Source: Anaerolineaceae bacterium
GTDB taxonomy: Bacteria; Chloroflexota; Anaerolineae; Anaerolineales; Anaerolineaceae
Length of the DNA: 64,000 bases
Reading direction: 5' to 3'
Assembly (NCBI GenBank): GCA_016841365.1
Contig: JAENZI010000001.1
Coordinates: 443,639 to 507,638 of the forward strand
Shown piece after piece: positions 15,165-63,122 of this stretch. Below the pieces are notes generated by a model that worked only from the letters and a program-made list of their open reading frames with translations, was not told the DNA's origin and did no database searches. How positions within the stretch are numbered: the first letter of the stretch is position 1; each line of letters starts with the position of its first letter. The position numbers and the translations under genes were made by a program.

Positions 15165-17810
15165 TCAGTCTTGTGAAAGGAAGGTTGCCTGAAATAAAGC
15201 CCTGCCAATCTGCTCTGCAAGTTCAGGTGCATCAGCCTCAAGGACCACAACAATAGAAATGGGTTGGGCTTGCCAGTTTGTGGTTGTGCCAGCCATAAAC
15301 CATGTGATGGGATTTTCTTCATCGGCATTTGTGACTGCAGTTACTTGCCAGATGGGAAGATCCCTTTCTTTAAGCAGATTTGTCAAAAGGGTTGCACCTT
15401 GTGGCGAGAATGCCTGGGTTGTTGTTTGGGAGTCTGAAATCGTCACCCATTCGTTTTGCGGATTGCGATAAGCATTGACAATTCTGGGGTTTGGCACCAA
15501 ACCCCTGTGTGTTAGGGCACTCGCGGCCAGGCTTAATTGCAGCGGAGAGATTGAGAATGCCCCTTCTCTGAGTTGATCAACATTGTTGCCGGTCTTGTCA
15601 GGATCGCTGACCTGGGCTACATTGAGGTTGATCTGGGGTTCTGAGAAGAAACCTAAATTTTGTAACAATGCTGAAAGGCTTTCTGCTTCAATCTCCTGTG
15701 CGAAATCGTTTTGTGCAGCCAGACACCCATTTTTTATCAGCACCTCCCAGGTTAGAGAAGTGGCTTCTGGTCTTATTGCGCATGTTGAGAGGTTCAGGTT
15801 CGTTAGCAGGGATTCGGGATCTGGATATTGTTCAAGTGTGTCTTCCTGTGACGCCGTCAGGAATGGAAAAAGTGCTGCACCTGCTGGATAAAGTCCCTGC
15901 GTGGCGCGGTTCAATAGTGGGGCACGTTCATCTGTGCTCAGCACATCCCATTCCGCTTCCAAAGTTTCGGCGTTGAAGTAGGGATGGGAAGCTATCGCAA
16001 GAATTTCACCCGAGCTGGCATTCATTACTATGATTGATCCCATATTTTCGCCAAGCAGAGAATCAGCCGTTTGCTGCATTTCAAGGTCGATTGTCAATCG
16101 AATATCCAAACCCGGAGGGGGCTGGTTGTAGAGCAGGTCCTGCCAGAGGTGTGTCAGGTAGGGATACCCAATGTTGCCCCTCAGATACGGATACATGGAG
16201 GCTTCCAAACCTGTTTGTCCATAGACGCTATTCGTATAGCCAATAACTGTGTAGAGAGGGATGTGGTTGCTAGCCCTCTGATAGCTGCCGGGTGCACCTG
16301 TATTGGTTATGATGACCTGATTATCACGGTCAAGGATATCCCCGCGTGGGACAAAGCGGTCATCAATGATCCAGCGCGGGTTTTCAGTTCTGTTGATGAG
16401 GTCGGGGCTGAACCAGAAGGCAAGCAGGCTAGTCACGATCACTTCTAACATAAGCATGCTCATCATTACACCACCGCTGATCAGGTCTCTCGGGCGTCGC
16501 CTCACAATAGTTGCGCGATTTTCAGAGGTGCCGGCAGTATGGCTGATGGTCATTAACATCAGTACGGCGATAAACGAAATCAACAGGGACGACCCGCCAT
16601 AGGAAACAAAGGGGAGGGTTACGCCAGTTAATGGAAGCAAGCCAATATTTCCACCAATGATCAGGATGCTTTGCACCCCGAAATAAAAGATGATGCCGAG
16701 GGTAAGAAAGCGATGAAAGGCATTTGAGGTCTTATTAGCGAGCTTGATACCCCGATAGATCAGAAAAATCATCAAGGCGATTGGAACAGTGGTGCCAATA
16801 AAGCCTAATTCTTCTGCAATTGCTGAAAAGATGAAATCCGAGACTGAAACGGGAATCAGGTTTGGGCTGCCCAAGCCTGGACCAGCCCCAATCAATCCGC
16901 CTTCTGCAATGGCGATCATGGATTGGATGACCTGGTAGGAGGCACCGCTTGGATCGCTAAAAGGCGAAAGCCAGGTCGAAATCCGCAATCGGACAACATC
17001 GAGGAAGAAGTAACCTGCAATCCCCGACGCAATCATCAACAAAGGGGCAATGATCAAGATCAGCCTGCTGCGGCGTGTCGTGAATAAGATTCCAAGATAT
17101 ATTAACAGAAGTATGCTGGCGGTGCCTAAATCCCTTTGGAAGAACAAGATCAGAAGGGCTGCTGCTGTGAGGACAAGTGTGGGGAGCAGACTTTCAAATC
17201 GTCCCTGCACGATCGTGATCCGATCCGTGAAATAAGCTGCGAGGAATACGATCAGGAGCAATTTAAGCAGCTCTGAAGGCTGAAAGTGGATACCGAGGAA
17301 CTGCAGCCAGAGCGTTGGACCGTTATCGCTGTTGGGGTTGATCCCAATAAAGATCGTCAGGGCAGTCAGGAGGAGGCCTGAGATCAGCCAGACATATTTG
17401 TATTTGTGGAGGGTTTCGAGGAAGATCGGATATCGCATGCCTGCCAGAACGACAACTGTGGAGATGATAAGCCAGATGGTTTGTTTAAAGCCCAGGTTGG
17501 GATATAAGCGCCAGATCGTCATCAACCCTATCCCGCTCAAAAAGGCCACGATTGGCAGCAAAAAGGGATCGAGTTTGGGCAGGTATTTTTTTGCTTGGCG
17601 GTGTAAAAGGTAGAAAGAGACACCCCAACCTGCCACACCCAGCCAGTGATCAAACTGGAATGGGCCGCTGGAGGACCTGATTCTGATGGAAGGTGCCAGG
17701 GTCAGAACAAGAGCATAAGCCACCACGATAAATGCTGTGATCAGCAGCAACCGCTGTTGGATTTCGCCTTTTTGTTTGCTTTTGCTGAGTTTGCTTAAGC
17801 GAGAACGCAC
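15165..17810 (-). CDS. SEDS glycosyltransferase (FtsW/RodA) fused to a degenerate transpeptidase domain
   Basis: 881 residues. Residues about 15-430 are a ten-TM SEDS polymerase with the conserved segments SDFIFSAIAEELGFIG (keeping the catalytic Asp of TDFIF) and LPLTGVTLPFVSYGGSSLL. After a further TM helix (about 448-468) comes a class-B-PBP-like outside region starting at RGDILDRDNQVI. The transpeptidase fold is recognisable, but all three catalytic motifs are gone: the SxxK site reads YPAGAALF (Ser to Ala at 15876-15878, Lys to Phe at 15867-15869), SxN reads AQN, and KTGT reads MAGTTT. It would polymerise glycan strands but should not cross-link. It follows mtnP by 2 bp and two FHA genes. 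Confidence 0.9.
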   Translation of the reverse strand: MRSRLSKLSKSKQKGEIQQRLLLITAFIVVAYALVLTLAPSIRIRSSSGPFQFDHWLGVAGWGVSFYLLHRQAKKYLPKLDPFLLPIVAFLSGIGLMTIWRLYPNLGFKQTIWLIISTVVVLAGMRYPIFLETLHKYKYVWLISGLLLTALTIFIGINPNSDNGPTLWLQFLGIHFQPSELLKLLLIVFLAAYFTDRITIVQGRFESLLPTLVLTAAALLILFFQRDLGTASILLLIYLGILFTTRRSRLILIIAPLLMIASGIAGYFFLDVVRLRISTWLSPFSDPSGASYQVIQSMIAIAEGGLIGAGPGLGSPNLIPVSVSDFIFSAIAEELGFIGTTVPIALMIFLIYRGIKLANKTSNAFHRFLTLGIIFYFGVQSILIIGGNIGLLPLTGVTLPFVSYGGSSLLISFIAVLMLMTISHTAGTSENRATIVRRRPRDLISGGVMMSMLMLEVIVTSLLAFWFSPDLINRTENPRWIIDDRFVPRGDILDRDNQVIITNTGAPGSYQRASNHIPLYTVIGYTNSVYGQTGLEASMYPYLRGNIGYPYLTHLWQDLLYNQPPPGLDIRLTIDLEMQQTADSLLGENMGSIIVMNASSGEILAIASHPYFNAETLEAEWDVLSTDERAPLLNRATQGLYPAGAALFPFLTASQEDTLEQYPDPESLLTNLNLSTCAIRPEATSLTWEVLIKNGCLAAQNDFAQEIEAESLSALLQNLGFFSEPQINLNVAQVSDPDKTGNNVDQLREGAFSISPLQLSLAASALTHRGLVPNPRIVNAYRNPQNEWVTISDSQTTTQAFSPQGATLLTNLLKERDLPIWQVTAVTNADEENPITWFMAGTTTNWQAQPISIVVVLEADAPELAEQIGRALFQATFLSQD

Positions 17811-17812
17811 GG

Positions 17813-18679
17813 TTATCCTAAATATTTATTGATCAGCAAGCTCAATTGATCGCGTTTCTCTGGGTCGATCATCTCAGGGTTCGTGATCAACGCGTTTTCG
17901 AGGGCGTATTCACATTGGCAGCTTGACGCAGGGTCGATCAGATCAACCATTTTCTTAATCGTATCCTGGGCAAGTGCGATATTTTTGTTAAGTGTGCGGA
18001 TGACGATATCTACCGTCACGCTTTCTTCACTGACGTGCCACACATCATAGTCTGTGACATGTGCCATGGTTGTGTAACAGATTTCTGCTTCACGCGCCAA
18101 GAAGACCTCTGGTGAGGCGGTCATGCCGATGATGTCCATGCCCCATTGCCGGTAAAGCCCCGACTCACCCTTGGTTGAGAACCGGGGGCCCTCGATCGTA
18201 ATGTAAGTTCCGCCGCGATGCGAAAGCCCGCCGGCTGATTGGACAGCCTCTTCGAGAGTGTCTGAGAGGTGCTCGCAGAATGGATCTGCAACGCTGACAT
18301 GCGCGACCAGTCCTTTGCCAAAGAAGCTGCGTTCACGTTTATGAGTGAAGTCAAAGATCTGGTTGGGGATAACGATGTGACCGGGTGCGTAAGCCTCACG
18401 GAGTGACCCGCATGCGCTGACGCTGACGATTCTTTTTACACCAATTGATTTGAGGGCATAAATATTAGCGCGATAGGGTACCTCACTTGGTGGATAGATG
18501 TGTCCGACCCCGTGCCTGGCGAGAAATGCGACGGGTTTCCCATTCAGCCGACCCAATGTAATCGGTGAACTCGGTTTTCCGAAAGGCGTATCCACATTGA
18601 TGGTCTCGATATCTTTAAGATCTTCAAACGCGTACAGTCCAGATCCGCCAATGACTGCTAATACAGGTGCTTCATTCAT
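17813..18679 (-). CDS. mtnP: S-methyl-5'-thioadenosine phosphorylase
   Basis: 288 residues from the ATG at 18679 with GGAG upstream; a TTG two codons earlier is less likely. The enzyme converts methylthioadenosine and phosphate to adenine and methylthioribose-1-phosphate in methionine salvage and polyamine metabolism. Visible are VIGGSGLYAFE, FLARHGVGHIYPPSEVPYRAN, VSVSACGSLREAYAPGH, IEGPRFSTKGES, IGMTASPEVFLAREAEICY and TDYDVWH, all as in MTAP rather than guanosine PNP. A C-terminal extension with CQCEYAL is typical of bacterial and archaeal forms. It sits between fhaB and the SEDS fusion gene, an odd place for a salvage enzyme. Confidence 0.92.
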   Translation of the reverse strand: MNEAPVLAVIGGSGLYAFEDLKDIETINVDTPFGKPSSPITLGRLNGKPVAFLARHGVGHIYPPSEVPYRANIYALKSIGVKRIVSVSACGSLREAYAPGHIVIPNQIFDFTHKRERSFFGKGLVAHVSVADPFCEHLSDTLEEAVQSAGGLSHRGGTYITIEGPRFSTKGESGLYRQWGMDIIGMTASPEVFLAREAEICYTTMAHVTDYDVWHVSEESVTVDIVIRTLNKNIALAQDTIKKMVDLIDPASSCQCEYALENALITNPEMIDPEKRDQLSLLINKYLG

Positions 18680-18696
18680 GTTCAACTCCGATTTAA

Positions 18697-19122
18697 TTAG
18701 TGAAATGCGATTTTAATCTGGGCACGTCCGAATTGCAATTCATCTCCCTCTGTGATCACAGTTGGGGTTGAAAGCGGTATGCCATTGAGTAGGGTGCCGT
18801 TGGTCGAGTCGAGGTCTTCCGCCCACCATTGTTTATGGTAATATGCAAGTTTGCAATGCCTGAGCGAGATAGTTTCATCATTCAGTGGAAAATCACAGGC
18901 TGGATCACGCCCGATAATGATCTCTTGTTTCTCGAAACCTTTTTGGGTTATTACTTGATTGAAAACCGCCTCAAGTTTGATAGGTGGAACCGTTGATTGT
19001 TTTTTATCAACAGTAATTTGCCGTTTAAAGTCAGAAAAGATTACATATCCGATCCAGCCAATAAAGGCATAAGCAGAAAGCACCACAAGAAGCCGTAAAA
19101 CAAATACAAGCATTGCGCTCAT
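18697..19122 (-). CDS. FHA-domain membrane protein (FhaB-like)
   Basis: 141 residues. An N-terminal TM helix at about 5-28 (LVFVLRLLVVLSAYAFIGWIGYVIF) precedes a cytoplasmic FHA domain at about 62-141 with the phosphothreonine-binding residues of GRDPACDFPLNDETISLRHC and DSTNGTLLNG. It resembles actinobacterial FhaB/FipA in size and order (TM, then FHA). FHA domains bind phosphothreonine proteins made by Ser/Thr kinases, but no kinase gene is in this window. Its start overlaps the fhaA-like stop by 4 bp, and mtnP and the SEDS fusion follow. Confidence 0.85.
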   Translation of the reverse strand: MSAMLVFVLRLLVVLSAYAFIGWIGYVIFSDFKRQITVDKKQSTVPPIKLEAVFNQVITQKGFEKQEIIIGRDPACDFPLNDETISLRHCKLAYYHKQWWAEDLDSTNGTLLNGIPLSTPTVITEGDELQFGRAQIKIAFH

Positions 19123-19934
19123 CCGCTGAAGTCCCCTGAATGATCATCTCCGGTTGTTTCAAATTCCCCTTCAATCGGCAGGATCGTGGTCTGGTAGTCC
19201 GATGTCGTCTCTTGCACATAGATCAGGTTTGTCACGCCAAGTAGGATAACATCGCCGTTCTGCAGGGTCGCTTGGTTAACCTTCTTCCCGTTTATAAACA
19301 CGCCGCCTGTAGAGCCCACATCGAATATGATGAATTTCCGATTGATCGCCCTGAGTTGCGCATGATGCCTTGAAACATGCAGGTCGTCCAATACCAGGTC
19401 GTTTTCTGAATGACGCCCAATATTAATGACAGACATATGCAGTGGGTAAATAATCGAACCGCCAACGATCAACATTGCGCCATCGGGTAGCGATGGGTTG
19501 GAAGTGTTGGGCTTCTCTGGTTCCATGGCGGATGTATCCGGCAAATTCTGATCTTCAGGGGATATAAACGCCTCGATTGAGTAGTCATTGTGCAGGATGC
19601 TCGGACTGCTCTCAAGTTCAATTGTTGGCGATCTTCGGAAATCCAGCCCTTCGATTTGTGCGGTCGAATGAATAGTCCCAGCCATATCGTCAAGGATATA
19701 TTGAAAAGCCTGCCAATCAGGCAGATCTTCAGGGGAGACCGTTAGGCGAAAATGATCAGGCGCGATCGTGTGGTCAGATTCGCCAACCATAATATTGTGG
19801 GTTAACGCATCCATCAAATCGTTGATTAAGGTCTCCTTTGGTTTGTTCCCTGTGAGAACCCACAACAATTTTTCTTCAAATAGGGCGCGTAATTGTGCTT
19901 CTATACGGTCGAGATTTCCATTCTTATGTATCAT
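19119..19934 (-). CDS. FHA-domain protein with DUF3662 head (FhaA-like)
   Basis: 271 residues from the ATG at 19934. Residues 1-110 match the FhaA N-terminal (DUF3662) pattern: LDRIEAQLRALFEEKL, LINDLMDALTHN and the DHFRLTVSPEDL strand. An acidic/Pro linker leads to an FHA domain at about 185-262 (INIGRHSENDLVLDDLHVSRHHAQL, DVGSTGGVFINGKKV). In Actinobacteria fhaA, fhaB and rodA/pbpA form one locus that couples kinase signalling to cell-wall synthesis, and the same neighbours occur here. No ribosome-binding site precedes the ATG, and a -10 box lies only 9 bases upstream, suggesting a leaderless mRNA. Confidence 0.85.
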   Translation of the reverse strand: MIHKNGNLDRIEAQLRALFEEKLLWVLTGNKPKETLINDLMDALTHNIMVGESDHTIAPDHFRLTVSPEDLPDWQAFQYILDDMAGTIHSTAQIEGLDFRRSPTIELESSPSILHNDYSIEAFISPEDQNLPDTSAMEPEKPNTSNPSLPDGAMLIVGGSIIYPLHMSVINIGRHSENDLVLDDLHVSRHHAQLRAINRKFIIFDVGSTGGVFINGKKVNQATLQNGDVILLGVTNLIYVQETTSDYQTTILPIEGEFETTGDDHSGDFSG

Positions 19935-19938
19935 GCCA

Positions 19939-19950
19939 GTATAATTATAC
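19939..19950. promoter_or_regulatory. Symmetric divergent -10 element between fhaA and archease
   Basis: GTATAATTATAC is a perfect 12-bp palindrome that contains TATAAT on both strands (plus 19940-19945, minus 19949-19944). The start codons are at 19934 (minus) and 19956 (plus), with only 21 bp between them and no Shine-Dalgarno sequence for either. Initiation 6-8 bases from each -10 would give two leaderless or nearly leaderless mRNAs. Clear -35 hexamers are not seen. Confidence 0.5.
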
Positions 19951-19955
19951 CCAGT

Positions 19956-20363
19956 ATGATATTGCATGGATTTGAGGAAGTTGATCACACCGCAGACATT
20001 GCCTTGAGGGTTTGGGGTGAAGATTTCTATTCACTCCTCAAGCAGGCTGCTCGGGGGATGTATGCCCTGATGGGCGCAGTAAAGCACCGAAATTCAGAGA
20101 TTGAACAGCAATTTTTTGTGCCACAAGGTTCCCTCGAAACGAAATTGGTGGATTTTTTAAGTGAGATTTTATACCTGTGCGAGGATAAGGGGTATTTATT
20201 TGACACATTTGATTTAGTTGATCGGAGTGATGGTTTAATTGTGAAGGTAAAAGGATCCCCAGTTAAATCCATTGATCGAACGATTAAGGCTGTCACATTT
20301 CACAATCTAGAAGTAAAGGAAACATCAAAAGGATTTACAACCCTAATTACCTTCGATGTTTAG
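19956..20363 (+). CDS. Archease, RtcB activator
   Basis: 135 residues from the ATG at 19956; an upstream in-frame start at 19893 would run into the divergent fhaA gene. Archease marks are GFEEVDHTADIALRVWGEDF at the N-terminus (metal-binding aspartate and the DHTAD motif), the KLVDFLSEILYLCEDKGYLF core and VKAVTFHNLEV (AVTYH-like motif) with a terminal FDV. Archease speeds the guanylylation of RtcB and allows multiple turnover. rtcB follows after 12 bp, so the two are one transcription unit. Confidence 0.93.
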   Translation: MILHGFEEVDHTADIALRVWGEDFYSLLKQAARGMYALMGAVKHRNSEIEQQFFVPQGSLETKLVDFLSEILYLCEDKGYLFDTFDLVDRSDGLIVKVKGSPVKSIDRTIKAVTFHNLEVKETSKGFTTLITFDV

Positions 20364-60534: not shown

Positions 60535-61038
60535 TTGATTGCCCATATTGTTTGTGCGATAACACTGGTCGTGTTATATATTTTACAGACGGCTGTTTTC
60601 TCGTGGACGACGCTTATTTCCGGTACTGCTGACCTGATTCTGTTATTTTTTGCAGCCTGGTCGTTACAGGAGGGCGTTCATAATAGCTGGTTATGGGCTG
60701 CCATTGCCGGTGTGTTTGTCAGCATCATCTCAGCCATGCCGTTCTATGCACCTTTGATCGCTTATTTAGGCGTTGTCGGCATTTCTAAGTTATTGCAAAG
60801 ACGAATTTGGCGTACGCCGATCATTGCAATGTTCATTGTGACCATCCTTGGGACATTTTTTCAACAAATCGTTTATGTGCTCACTCTACAAATTTCAGGT
60901 GCACCAATTTCCTGGGGTCAAAGTTTTGATGCGGTGGTCCTGCCGAGTGTTTTATTGAACCTTATTTTTGCCCTGCCAATCTATGCGATAGCGAACGATC
61001 TGGCGGGACGAATTTCACCTCTGGAGGTGGAAACATGA
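60535..61038 (+). CDS. mreD: Rod-shape-determining membrane protein MreD
   Basis: 167 residues from a TTG 2 bp after mreC, in frame and with the same overlap pattern as the rest of the cluster. Five TM helices (IVCAITLVVLYILQTAVF, LILLFFAAWSLQEG, WLWAAIAGVFVSIISAMPFYAPLIAYLGVVG and two more) fit MreD. The sequence family is weakly conserved, so the call rests mainly on topology and position between mreC and mrdA. Its stop overlaps the PBP2 start (ATGA). Confidence 0.85.
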   Translation: MIAHIVCAITLVVLYILQTAVFSWTTLISGTADLILLFFAAWSLQEGVHNSWLWAAIAGVFVSIISAMPFYAPLIAYLGVVGISKLLQRRIWRTPIIAMFIVTILGTFFQQIVYVLTLQISGAPISWGQSFDAVVLPSVLLNLIFALPIYAIANDLAGRISPLEVET

Positions 61039-63122
61039 ACGTTTTCCCCCAAAGAAACCAATCTTTTGACAAATGGCGATACCTGGTGTTGTTCATCCTG
61101 GTTGGTACGATTTTTGGATTTTATATCTTGCGTTTATTTGATATTCAGATCCTGAGAGGGGCTGATTTCAACGCTCAGGCCGAAGAAAACCGGACGCGGA
61201 TTATCAATGAACCAGCGGTTCGTGGCACCATCTATGACCGTAATGGGGTTATTCTGGCTCAAAATGTGCCGTCTTACAATGTTGTCGTCATCCCGGGGTA
61301 TCTGCCGGAGGATGAAGGCGATACGCAGCGAATATTCAGGGAATTGTCGGAAATCATCGACATTCCGGTCAGCCAAGGTGCGACTGACGAGGAATCTGTC
61401 AGGAATTTTACGCCGTGTTATAACGATTTAGGCATTTCTGAGATAGTTTTTATCGCCGGAACGAACTGGCCATACGATGAAACTGCGCTCAAGTGCAATG
61501 TTTCGAAGGATGTCGCCATGTATGTGATGGAGAATCGCGAAGAATGGCCTGGGATTGATGTTGAGATCAGTTCTGTCAGGCAATATCCAACTGGCGAACT
61601 CACATCAGAAATCATTGGTTTTTTGGGACCAATCCCGGCAATTCTTGAAGATTACTACGTTGACCTTGGCTTTGTCGCCAACAGGGATAAGGTGGGTTAT
61701 GCAGGCGTTGAGCAGTCTTTGAATGACACCCTGGCAGGGACAAATGGCATCCGAGAGGTTGAAGTTAATGTCGCCGGAGAAATTATTCGCAACCTCTCTG
61801 AGCCTGTTGATCCTATCCCCGGGAATGATATCTACCTGACGATTGATGCCCGGCTGCAAGCGATTGCCCGGGAAGCGCTGATCAGTGAGATTGATTACTG
61901 GAATAACTTTGGGGGTCGAATTATCTCAAACAGCGGCGTTGTTGCCGCTATGAACCCTAAAACGGGTGAGGTCCTGGCGCTGGTATCTTATCCAAATTAT
62001 GAAAACAACCGTATGGAACGCATTATCCCGGGATATTATTATGAACAACTGAGCAATGATCCGCAGGATCCGCTTCTGAACAAAGGTGTAACAGGTGAAT
62101 ATCCACCAGGCTCAGTATATAAATTGACCTCCGCGCTGGGCGTTTTGAATGAAGGTGTGGTTACGCCTGAATATGAAATTAATGATCCTGGCAGCATTTT
62201 TGTCATTCAGCGGTTTTATGAAAACGACCCGGGTGTTCCCAGGCAATTCGTTTGCTGGGACCAGAACGGCCACGGCATGGTGAATTATCGCTGGGCGATT
62301 GCCCTTTCGTGTAATATCTACTGGCATAAAGTTGCAGGCGGTTACCAGGATGAGGTGCCAAACGGTGGGTTAGGTCCCTGGTTGATGAGCGAATACGCCC
62401 AGGCGTTGGGTTATGGCTCACCGACGGGGATTGAGCTTCCTGCTGAATCTGACGGCCTGGTGCCCAACCCGACCTGGAAACGAATCAATTTGGGCGAAAA
62501 CTGGGCAACCGGTGATACTTACTCTGCAGCGATTGGTCAGGGCTATGTGCTTTCAACGCCCCTTCAAGTGCTTAATTCGATCTCTACAATTGCAAATGGC
62601 GGAAAGTTGATGGACCTCACGATTGTTGATAGCGTTGTTTCAGCCAACGGCACAATTCTGCAGCAAATGGTGCCCTCTGTTCGATGGGATATTACCGAAG
62701 AGCCCTTAATTGAAACTTATGATGGCAATAATCCTACTGGTGAGTTGAAGACTGTGGAGCCCTGGGTGTTGCAGCTTGCCAATGAGGGCATGCGCCTGGT
62801 AGTGACTGAGGGTACGGCCAGCCGTTATGAGATTGAGCGTCATGCTGAGTTGTTCAGGAATGATTCAAGCCAATCAGCCGGTAAGACTGGGACGGCTGAG
62901 TATTGTGATGATGTTGCCCAATCACAGGGTCGCTGCGAATTTGGTAAATGGCCTTCGCATGCCTGGTATGTGGGCTACGCACCCTGGACGGATGCAGAAA
63001 TTGCTGTGGTTGCCTTTGTGTATAACGGAACAGAGGGCGCAACACTGTCTGCACCTGTTGTCCGGCGGGTGATCGATGCCTATTTCGAGCTGAAGGCGAT
63101 TGATACTGCTGAAACGCCTTAA
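61035..63122 (+). CDS. mrdA: Penicillin-binding protein 2 (MrdA), elongasome transpeptidase
   Basis: 695 residues. One N-terminal TM helix (about 15-35) precedes the pedestal domain (ENRTRIINEPAVRGTIYDRNGVILAQN, typical of class B PBPs) and the transpeptidase domain. Catalytic motifs are intact: SVYK at residues 360-363 (EYPPGSVYKLTSALG), SCN in ALSCNIYWHKV, and KTGTAEY starting at K617. Cross-links nascent side-wall peptidoglycan. Compared with the SEDS-linked domain at 15165-17810 every key residue is retained here. It follows mreD with a 4-bp overlap, and minC comes 98 bp later. Confidence 0.96.
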   Translation: MNVFPQRNQSFDKWRYLVLFILVGTIFGFYILRLFDIQILRGADFNAQAEENRTRIINEPAVRGTIYDRNGVILAQNVPSYNVVVIPGYLPEDEGDTQRIFRELSEIIDIPVSQGATDEESVRNFTPCYNDLGISEIVFIAGTNWPYDETALKCNVSKDVAMYVMENREEWPGIDVEISSVRQYPTGELTSEIIGFLGPIPAILEDYYVDLGFVANRDKVGYAGVEQSLNDTLAGTNGIREVEVNVAGEIIRNLSEPVDPIPGNDIYLTIDARLQAIAREALISEIDYWNNFGGRIISNSGVVAAMNPKTGEVLALVSYPNYENNRMERIIPGYYYEQLSNDPQDPLLNKGVTGEYPPGSVYKLTSALGVLNEGVVTPEYEINDPGSIFVIQRFYENDPGVPRQFVCWDQNGHGMVNYRWAIALSCNIYWHKVAGGYQDEVPNGGLGPWLMSEYAQALGYGSPTGIELPAESDGLVPNPTWKRINLGENWATGDTYSAAIGQGYVLSTPLQVLNSISTIANGGKLMDLTIVDSVVSANGTILQQMVPSVRWDITEEPLIETYDGNNPTGELKTVEPWVLQLANEGMRLVVTEGTASRYEIERHAELFRNDSSQSAGKTGTAEYCDDVAQSQGRCEFGKWPSHAWYVGYAPWTDAEIAVVAFVYNGTEGATLSAPVVRRVIDAYFELKAIDTAETP

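Follow-up and report, generated by a model that had tools for sequence, protein, structure and literature searches.

In Escherichia coli, the SEDS protein RodA is activated by the class B penicillin-binding protein (PBP) PBP2, and engineered RodA-PBP2 fusions are active (PMC10449877, PMC6207328). RodA is reported to be stimulated by the membrane helix of PBP2 (PMC10449877) and polymerization to be activated by PBP2 opening (PMC10257715), and a natural fusion of a SEDS protein and a PBP in a single open reading frame (ORF) is cited for Rhodococcus RHA1 (PMC10449877). So far, engineered dead mutants (PMC5656894, PMC12713402) have been the means of asking whether class B PBPs are required for crosslinking or for switching on their SEDS partners. 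Bacillus subtilis PBP2B S309A (PMC5656894) and Clostridioides difficile SpoVD S311A (PMC12713402) are described as still serving the division complex while another PBP is active; for B. subtilis, division is supported by dead PBP2B when PBP3, which is close to Staphylococcus aureus PBP2A, gives the activity (PMC5656894). Here we describe a natural gene of this kind in a 64,000-nucleotide stretch of an Anaerolineaceae bacterium genome (Chloroflexota; GenBank assembly GCA_016841365.1, contig JAENZI010000001.1, positions 443,639 to 507,638), hereafter the window. It joins a SEDS polymerase to a PbpA-type PBP part from which all three transpeptidase motifs have been lost.

Results

A SEDS polymerase fused to a transpeptidase domain without its motifs

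A single reading frame on the minus strand of the window (15165..17810; all fusion features below lie on this strand) encodes an 881-amino acid protein with a GTG start. In Pfam, PF01098 (FTSW_RODA_SPOVE) matches residues 108-425 with 249.7 bits against a cut-off of 26.4, PF21922 (PBP_dimer_2, 'penicillin binding protein A dimerisation domain') matches residues 489-567 with 28.4 bits against a cut-off of 27, and the match of PF00905 to residues 591-815 is weak (41.7 bits, cut-off 22.1), compared with 169 bits for the PBP2 of the window. From the N-terminus, the protein consists of a SEDS polymerase part (residues 81-425; 16536..17570), a modeled helix (residues 440-466; 16413..16493) that we take as the probable membrane helix of the PBP part, a conserved pedestal of the PBP_dimer_2 type (residues 489-567; 16110..16346) and a pseudo-transpeptidase domain (residues 588-881; 15168..16049), which matches the PbpA fold with a Z score of about 40. 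An initial annotation, made from the sequence alone, had proposed that one frame joins an FtsW/RodA-type polymerase to a class-B-PBP-like domain; the ORF and the Pfam matches confirm this, and the SDFIF and LPFVSYGGSS motifs that it quoted are both found in the SEDS half.

The catalytic motifs were placed by alignment with the organism's own intact PBPs. The SxxK motif corresponds to A645-A646-L647-F648 (15867..15878), with A645 and F648 at the Ser and Lys positions, exactly as first read (AALF). The other two motifs had been misplaced: SxN, read as AQN (residues 699-701), aligns with G695-C696-L697 (15720..15728), and KTG, thought to be replaced by AGTTT, aligns with V823-T824-A825 (15336..15344), the AGTTT residues lying in the strand after KTG (WYVGYAP in PBP2). 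Despite these corrections to two of the three placements, the loss of all three motifs stands. A displaced active site in the window protein is ruled out, because residues 441-881 contain no SxxK at all; the sole KTG in this range, at residue 739, is off the motif position. The PBP2 at 61035-63122, which the annotation had named as the normal enzyme of this organism, indeed has all seven motif residues, and the other four PBPs of the genome are likewise intact at these residues; among the six PF00905 matches of the genome, that of the fusion is the weakest. The transpeptidase of the fusion is almost certainly dead, and from its sequence, beta-lactam binding and crosslinking by the fusion are predicted to be absent.

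The loss is shared across the Anaerolineae

Loci were gathered from the window's own genome and 60 relatives, from 201 sampled genomes of the phylum, and from named loci of the top 80 among 546 confirmed relatives. Of the phylum genomes, 123 matched and the loci of a part (including L060-L085) were read, so that the intact set is a sample. We scored a locus as lost when both residue pairs and the K(T/S)G triplet were missing at the aligned place, gaps counted. After eight near-identical loci (97% or more) had been discarded, 153 distinct loci were left of the 161 scored; where a SEDS gene had no nearby PBP frame, the locus was left unscored (L054, L057, L058, L059, L086, L090, which is the same place as L081, L096, L100, L104, L105, L112, L114, L115, L117, L118, L119 and L125).

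The distinct loci comprise 128 lost (113 fused and 15 separate) and 25 intact (24 separate and one fused). The intact fusion, L110:3256-6156 (G190, of the same phylum), is the sole fused SEDS-PBP with three intact motifs among the scored loci. The Ser/Lys pair of SxxK, looked for in close relatives, is kept in none of the 135 lost loci (128 distinct). A stray Ser of SxxK survives in 16 of the 135, never with the Lys; within the window's genus, it does so in L012, L013, L016 and L018, of which L012 and L016 are copied by L126 and L127 (L126, from 'Anaerolineaceae bacterium' BL5_bin.11, is 97% or more identical to L012 of genome G012 in the PBP half). Other surviving single residues are the SxN Ser, the SxN Asn and the KTG Lys, each in two of the 135 loci. 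Gaps at the SxN Ser (47 loci) and Asn (45 loci) are almost all true shortening, and the KTG position is a gap from the contig end in five loci (L056, L145, L173, L174 and L199). Some SxxK occurs in the domain of 24 and some K(T/S)G in that of five of the 128 lost rows; an SxxK followed at least 60 residues on by a K(T/S)G occurs in none of them, compared with all 25 intact rows.

The lost form belongs essentially to one clade, the Anaerolineae. Among others, it is carried by two isolates, Levilinea saccharolytica KIBI-1 (L132) and Thermanaerothrix daxensis GNS-1 (L144), and by metagenome-assembled genomes titled Anaerolineaceae, Thermoflexales and Ardenticatenaceae. Both halves are readable in 46 of the 61 genomes made up of the window's own and its relatives: 41 have a single frame, four have adjacent genes, and one has two overlapping frames (L020; in this genome, G007, which is 79% complete, the split of the fusion is possibly an assembly frameshift). 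The rest are four genomes with the SEDS gene and no nearby PBP frame, G016 (contig-cut), G015 (a fragment) and nine with other SEDS genes only. In two of the four SEDS-only genomes, a PBP with SxxK lost lies on another contig (L207, L208), and SxxK is lost too in the visible portion of the G016 locus. L054 (G038) and L058 (G048) carry a SEDS gene of the fusion's family with no adjoining PBP frame.

Loss of catalysis probably happened about once

Elsewhere in the Chloroflexota, SEDS and PBP genes are often adjacent, with all motifs intact, and G177, of the same class as the window, retains an intact separate PBP (L087). Trees were built by a quick method from 146 PBP rows and from 140 or 136 SEDS rows; L102, with its nearby SEDS gene on the opposite strand, and L189, with its SEDS gene split over two frames, were excluded from the later SEDS trees. 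In the PBP tree, with the motif columns kept, the lost rows form a single clade of 119 (SH-like approximate likelihood ratio test (SH-aLRT) 99). The SEDS tree contains no motif column, and there 113 of the 114 lost rows group together as a clade (SH-aLRT 94), L107 falling outside. In a 58-row subset, a single clade for all 36 lost rows was not rejected by the approximately unbiased test (p-AU 0.669), the constrained lost clade having a likelihood 8.45 above that of the free quick tree. Taken together, the two trees and this test indicate that catalysis was probably lost about once; a simple single loss is opposed by the free SEDS tree, which takes two lost/intact changes and puts L107 among the intact rows. 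The fused or separate state requires at least seven changes on the SEDS tree (eight in an alternative tree), so that joining, splitting or both recurred. Two rows that group with Anaerolineales in the PBP tree, L138 (Herpetosiphon sp. IMS_BF) and L194 (Candidatus Aquidulcis sp.), bear names that look doubtful.

The actinobacterial locus has the order fhaA-fhaB-rodA-pbpA, and the locus type is fha-rodA-pbpA-pknB. FHA genes lie upstream of the fusion as well. Directly upstream, on the same strand, is the gene for S-methyl-5'-thioadenosine phosphorylase (MTAP; 17813..18685; TIGR01694, 302.1 bits, above cut-off; supported by synteny), followed by genes for an FhaB-like FHA protein (18697..19122; PF00498; NF049868 FhaB, 71.1 bits, below its cut-off of 125) and an FhaA-like protein with FhaA_N and FHA domains (19119..19988; PF12401, 31.1 bits; PF00498, 71.2 bits). 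L088 has the same gene order as the window, FhaA, FhaB, MTAP-like, SEDS and PBP. Near-duplicates counted, 115 lost fused loci extend 900 bases or more upstream, and of these, 87 have an FHA gene upstream, 90 an MTAP gene and 76 both; among 23 intact separate loci with a SEDS gene, 16 have an upstream FHA gene and five an MTAP gene. A search for a PASTA-domain kinase gave no PF03793 match in the window's 98% complete genome, which nevertheless retains the FhaA- and FhaB-like genes (18697-19988).

The dead domain is under selection and keeps its predicted fold

The ratio of nonsynonymous to synonymous substitution rates (dN/dS) was computed for 32 pairs of fused loci, which share branches; two repeat another pair, and many have a dS above 1. 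It ranges from 0.045 to 0.369 in the dead domain and from 0.011 to 0.277 in the SEDS half, and in the nine non-duplicate pairs with a domain dS below 1, it is 0.10-0.37 for the dead domain. The dead domain is under purifying selection.

An AlphaFold2 model of the window fusion, from a 53-row alignment, has a mean predicted local distance difference test score (pLDDT) of 91.5 and a predicted template modeling score (pTM) of 0.87. Its PBP part superposes on Atopobium parvulum 4qjg_B (Z 40.7, 2.7 Å, 372 residues), the top fold among the matches listed, and on M. tuberculosis PbpA 3lo7_A (Z 40.0, 2.8 Å, 373 residues). The suggested comparison with class B PBPs, by alignment and predicted structure, thus yields a PbpA-type pedestal and transpeptidase fold with the motifs gone. 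RodA is not among the fold-search matches listed for this model, as PBPs fill the list, and the RodA match described below comes from phmmer. The model of a shortened homologue, L143 (pLDDT 87.4, pTM 0.80), matches PbpA 3upo_A in its PBP part (Z 37.4, 2.8 Å, 333 residues) and FtsW 8bh1_A in its SEDS half (Z 36.1, 2.2 Å, 327 residues), and the fold is retained in every modeled class of sequence, full and shortened. With the active site gone but the shape kept by selection, these results suggest that the dead domain now only controls or positions its polymerase partner.

The polymerase half and a possible mechanism

Residues 80-422 of the fusion match the E. coli RodA chain 8tj3_B (MrdB) in phmmer (E 4.4e-35), and D325 (16836..16838) aligns with residue 262 of that chain, the D262 of RodA. 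D325 is invariant across the 53 alignment rows, and change of the same Asp to Ala is reported to abolish polymerization in RodA-PBP2 fusions (PMC6207328). The pattern [S/T]-D-aromatic...EE is present in 24 of 24 intact SEDS rows and in 111 of 114 lost ones, those missing it being L020 (a partial frame), L070 (EE to EQ) and L168 (DF to DL). Judged from these residues, the polymerase side of the fusion looks sound. The genome has three SEDS genes, the fusion included. One, at C13:508664, just past the window end and near the window PBP2, mreB and mreC, is taken as RodA; another, at C13:80700, near a PBP at C13:85699, is taken from its position as FtsW, with FtsI. Because of these two other SEDS genes, the fusion would constitute a third SEDS system.

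We consider it rather probable that the fusion is a SEDS polymerase that bears a permanent control arm and whose products are crosslinked in trans; its polymerase activity, its activation and its crosslinking partner are what we infer here. As a third SEDS glycan polymerase beside RodA and FtsW, its polymerase half would polymerize lipid II, and the joined helix and pedestal would act as its permanent activator. The folded, inactive transpeptidase domain may gate the polymerase or recruit partners by acting as a lever, a lid or a docking surface, and the strands would be crosslinked in trans by other PBPs. In the light of published work, the role of allosteric activator or scaffold first suggested for the fused domain is plausible.

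Candidate crosslinkers are the MecA_N-type PBPs of the same genomes. Two neighboring class B PBPs of the window genome, both intact and of the S. aureus PBP2a kind, carry a MecA_N (NTF2-like) domain (L002:388-2592 and L003:352-2649, at G000:C2:11754-15009). Such PBPs occur in 58 of 60 lost-form genomes vs 10 of 21 intact-form genomes (Fisher p 1.7e-6, not corrected for descent).

Several observations weigh against a polymerase with a control arm and crosslinkers in trans. The MecA_N association comes mainly from one clade. Two lost-form genomes are without a MecA_N match, G068 and G001, the latter being 66% complete. Nine of the 61 genomes have no match to the fusion, and three of these (G027, G031 and G050) are at least 95% complete, so that the gene is dispensable in some lineages. 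As a separate observation, G031, of the window's family, has a 765-amino acid frame (L206:1190-3484, on C1) in which a SEDS protein (PF01098) is linked to the two glycosyltransferase-28 domains (PF03033, PF04101), and which looks like an FtsW-MurG fusion.

Alternative explanations of the dead domain

Conservation, measured as mean top-residue frequency in 128 lost and 25 intact rows, groups of unequal depth in which only the contrast between regions counts, is 0.58 in the lost group vs 0.50 in the intact group for the pedestal, and has slackened in the SxxK-SxN region (0.39 vs 0.55) and the C-terminal part (0.43 vs 0.64). Some residues are conserved in the lost group only, namely W788 (15447..15449; 93% of lost and 4% of intact rows), W821 (15348..15350; 75% and 0%), G505, P649 and G695. 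Furthermore, C677 (15780..15782) is Cys in 99% of the 83 lost rows having the position and in 36% of the 25 intact rows, and C696, its possible disulfide partner, is Cys in 97% of the 87 lost rows having the position and in 44% of intact rows.

These residues, the near-universal Cys pair and the purifying selection on the dead domain would fit a pseudo-transpeptidase that does not mainly regulate the polymerase but has gained a function of its own, with glycan, lipid II, another PBP or a surface protein as possible ligands. We regard this as unlikely. The SxxK-SxN region is shorter than 70 residues in 39 of the 128 lost rows (L199 among them is contig-cut), compared with at least 124 in intact rows, which rules out a new site there as a general feature, and the newly conserved residues may merely stabilize the fold. 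The slackened active-site regions, and a shortening that happened repeatedly, would fit a decaying passenger, with only the helix and pedestal needed and the remainder kept because its removal harms folding. This is somewhat less likely still: the nine pairs of low dS give constrained ratios, the fold persists in the full and shortened models, and no scored lost row lacks the domain altogether, though there are a few SEDS genes without an adjoining PBP frame.

That the SEDS half works on a non-peptidoglycan substrate, making crosslinking unneeded, is allowed by the two further SEDS genes of the cell, RodA and FtsW, and is very improbable, since the catalytic residues match RodA and related lineages have an intact transpeptidase at the locus. 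Sequencing error, a pseudogene or a local mutation is ruled out for practical purposes by the same loss in 113 distinct fused loci, isolates included, and by purifying selection.

Returning to the SEDS polymerase with a control arm, there is good support for the initial proposal, a polymerase that carries its own pseudo-transpeptidase: the domain has no intact SxxK elsewhere, and no close relative of lost form keeps the catalytic pair. A wider scenario, which for us is evenly balanced, is that the Anaerolineae stem uncoupled wall polymerization from crosslinking: catalysis by PbpA would have been lost about once and the protein kept as an allosteric SEDS switch, mostly joined covalently, with conserved Trp residues of its own and a fixed Cys pair at the old SxN loop, while separate PBPs took over crosslinking.

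Discussion

If this wider scenario is true, a peptidoglycan polymerase controlled by a pseudoenzyme occurs naturally throughout the Anaerolineae as a class. Our interpretation predicts a SEDS synthase immune to direct block by beta-lactams, together with a separate crosslinker. The proteins offer natural constructs, mostly covalently linked, for studying polymerase activation without crosslinking, and the shortened forms among them show how small a part of the transpeptidase domain is required.

Both engineered dead PBPs and natural fusions of SEDS proteins with PBPs were known before; our literature searches, for which subscription papers were mostly outside the scope, yielded no conserved natural dead SEDS-PBP. 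Among the matches listed, the closest in fold and sequence to the PBP part are the 'peptidoglycan glycosyltransferase' proteins of A. parvulum (PDB 4jbf, 4n1x, 4qjg, 4r23) and Eggerthella lenta (4mnr). The A. parvulum entries are numbered 523-950, which suggests that the domain ends a long protein that may be another SEDS fusion. According to the entry titles, these proteins were solved with penicillins and cephalosporins, so their transpeptidase binds beta-lactams, whereas the motifs of the window protein are gone.

Mycobacterium tuberculosis PbpA (PDB 3lo7, 3un7, 3upn-3upp) has the same PBP_dimer_2 pedestal type and fold as the window protein, and the FHA genes at the window locus parallel those of the actinobacterial locus. 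However, PbpA is separate and catalytic, with acyl-enzyme structures by title, whereas the window protein is fused and dead. Likewise, E. coli RodA-PBP2 is naturally encoded by two genes and has an active transpeptidase that binds bocillin, whereas the window system is a single frame with its motifs gone. Finally, PBP2B S309A and SpoVD S311A are laboratory mutants, whereas the loss in the Anaerolineae is natural and old; the class carries a natural version of the dead-mutant experiment, in which catalysis is gone and the fold and the pedestal are kept.

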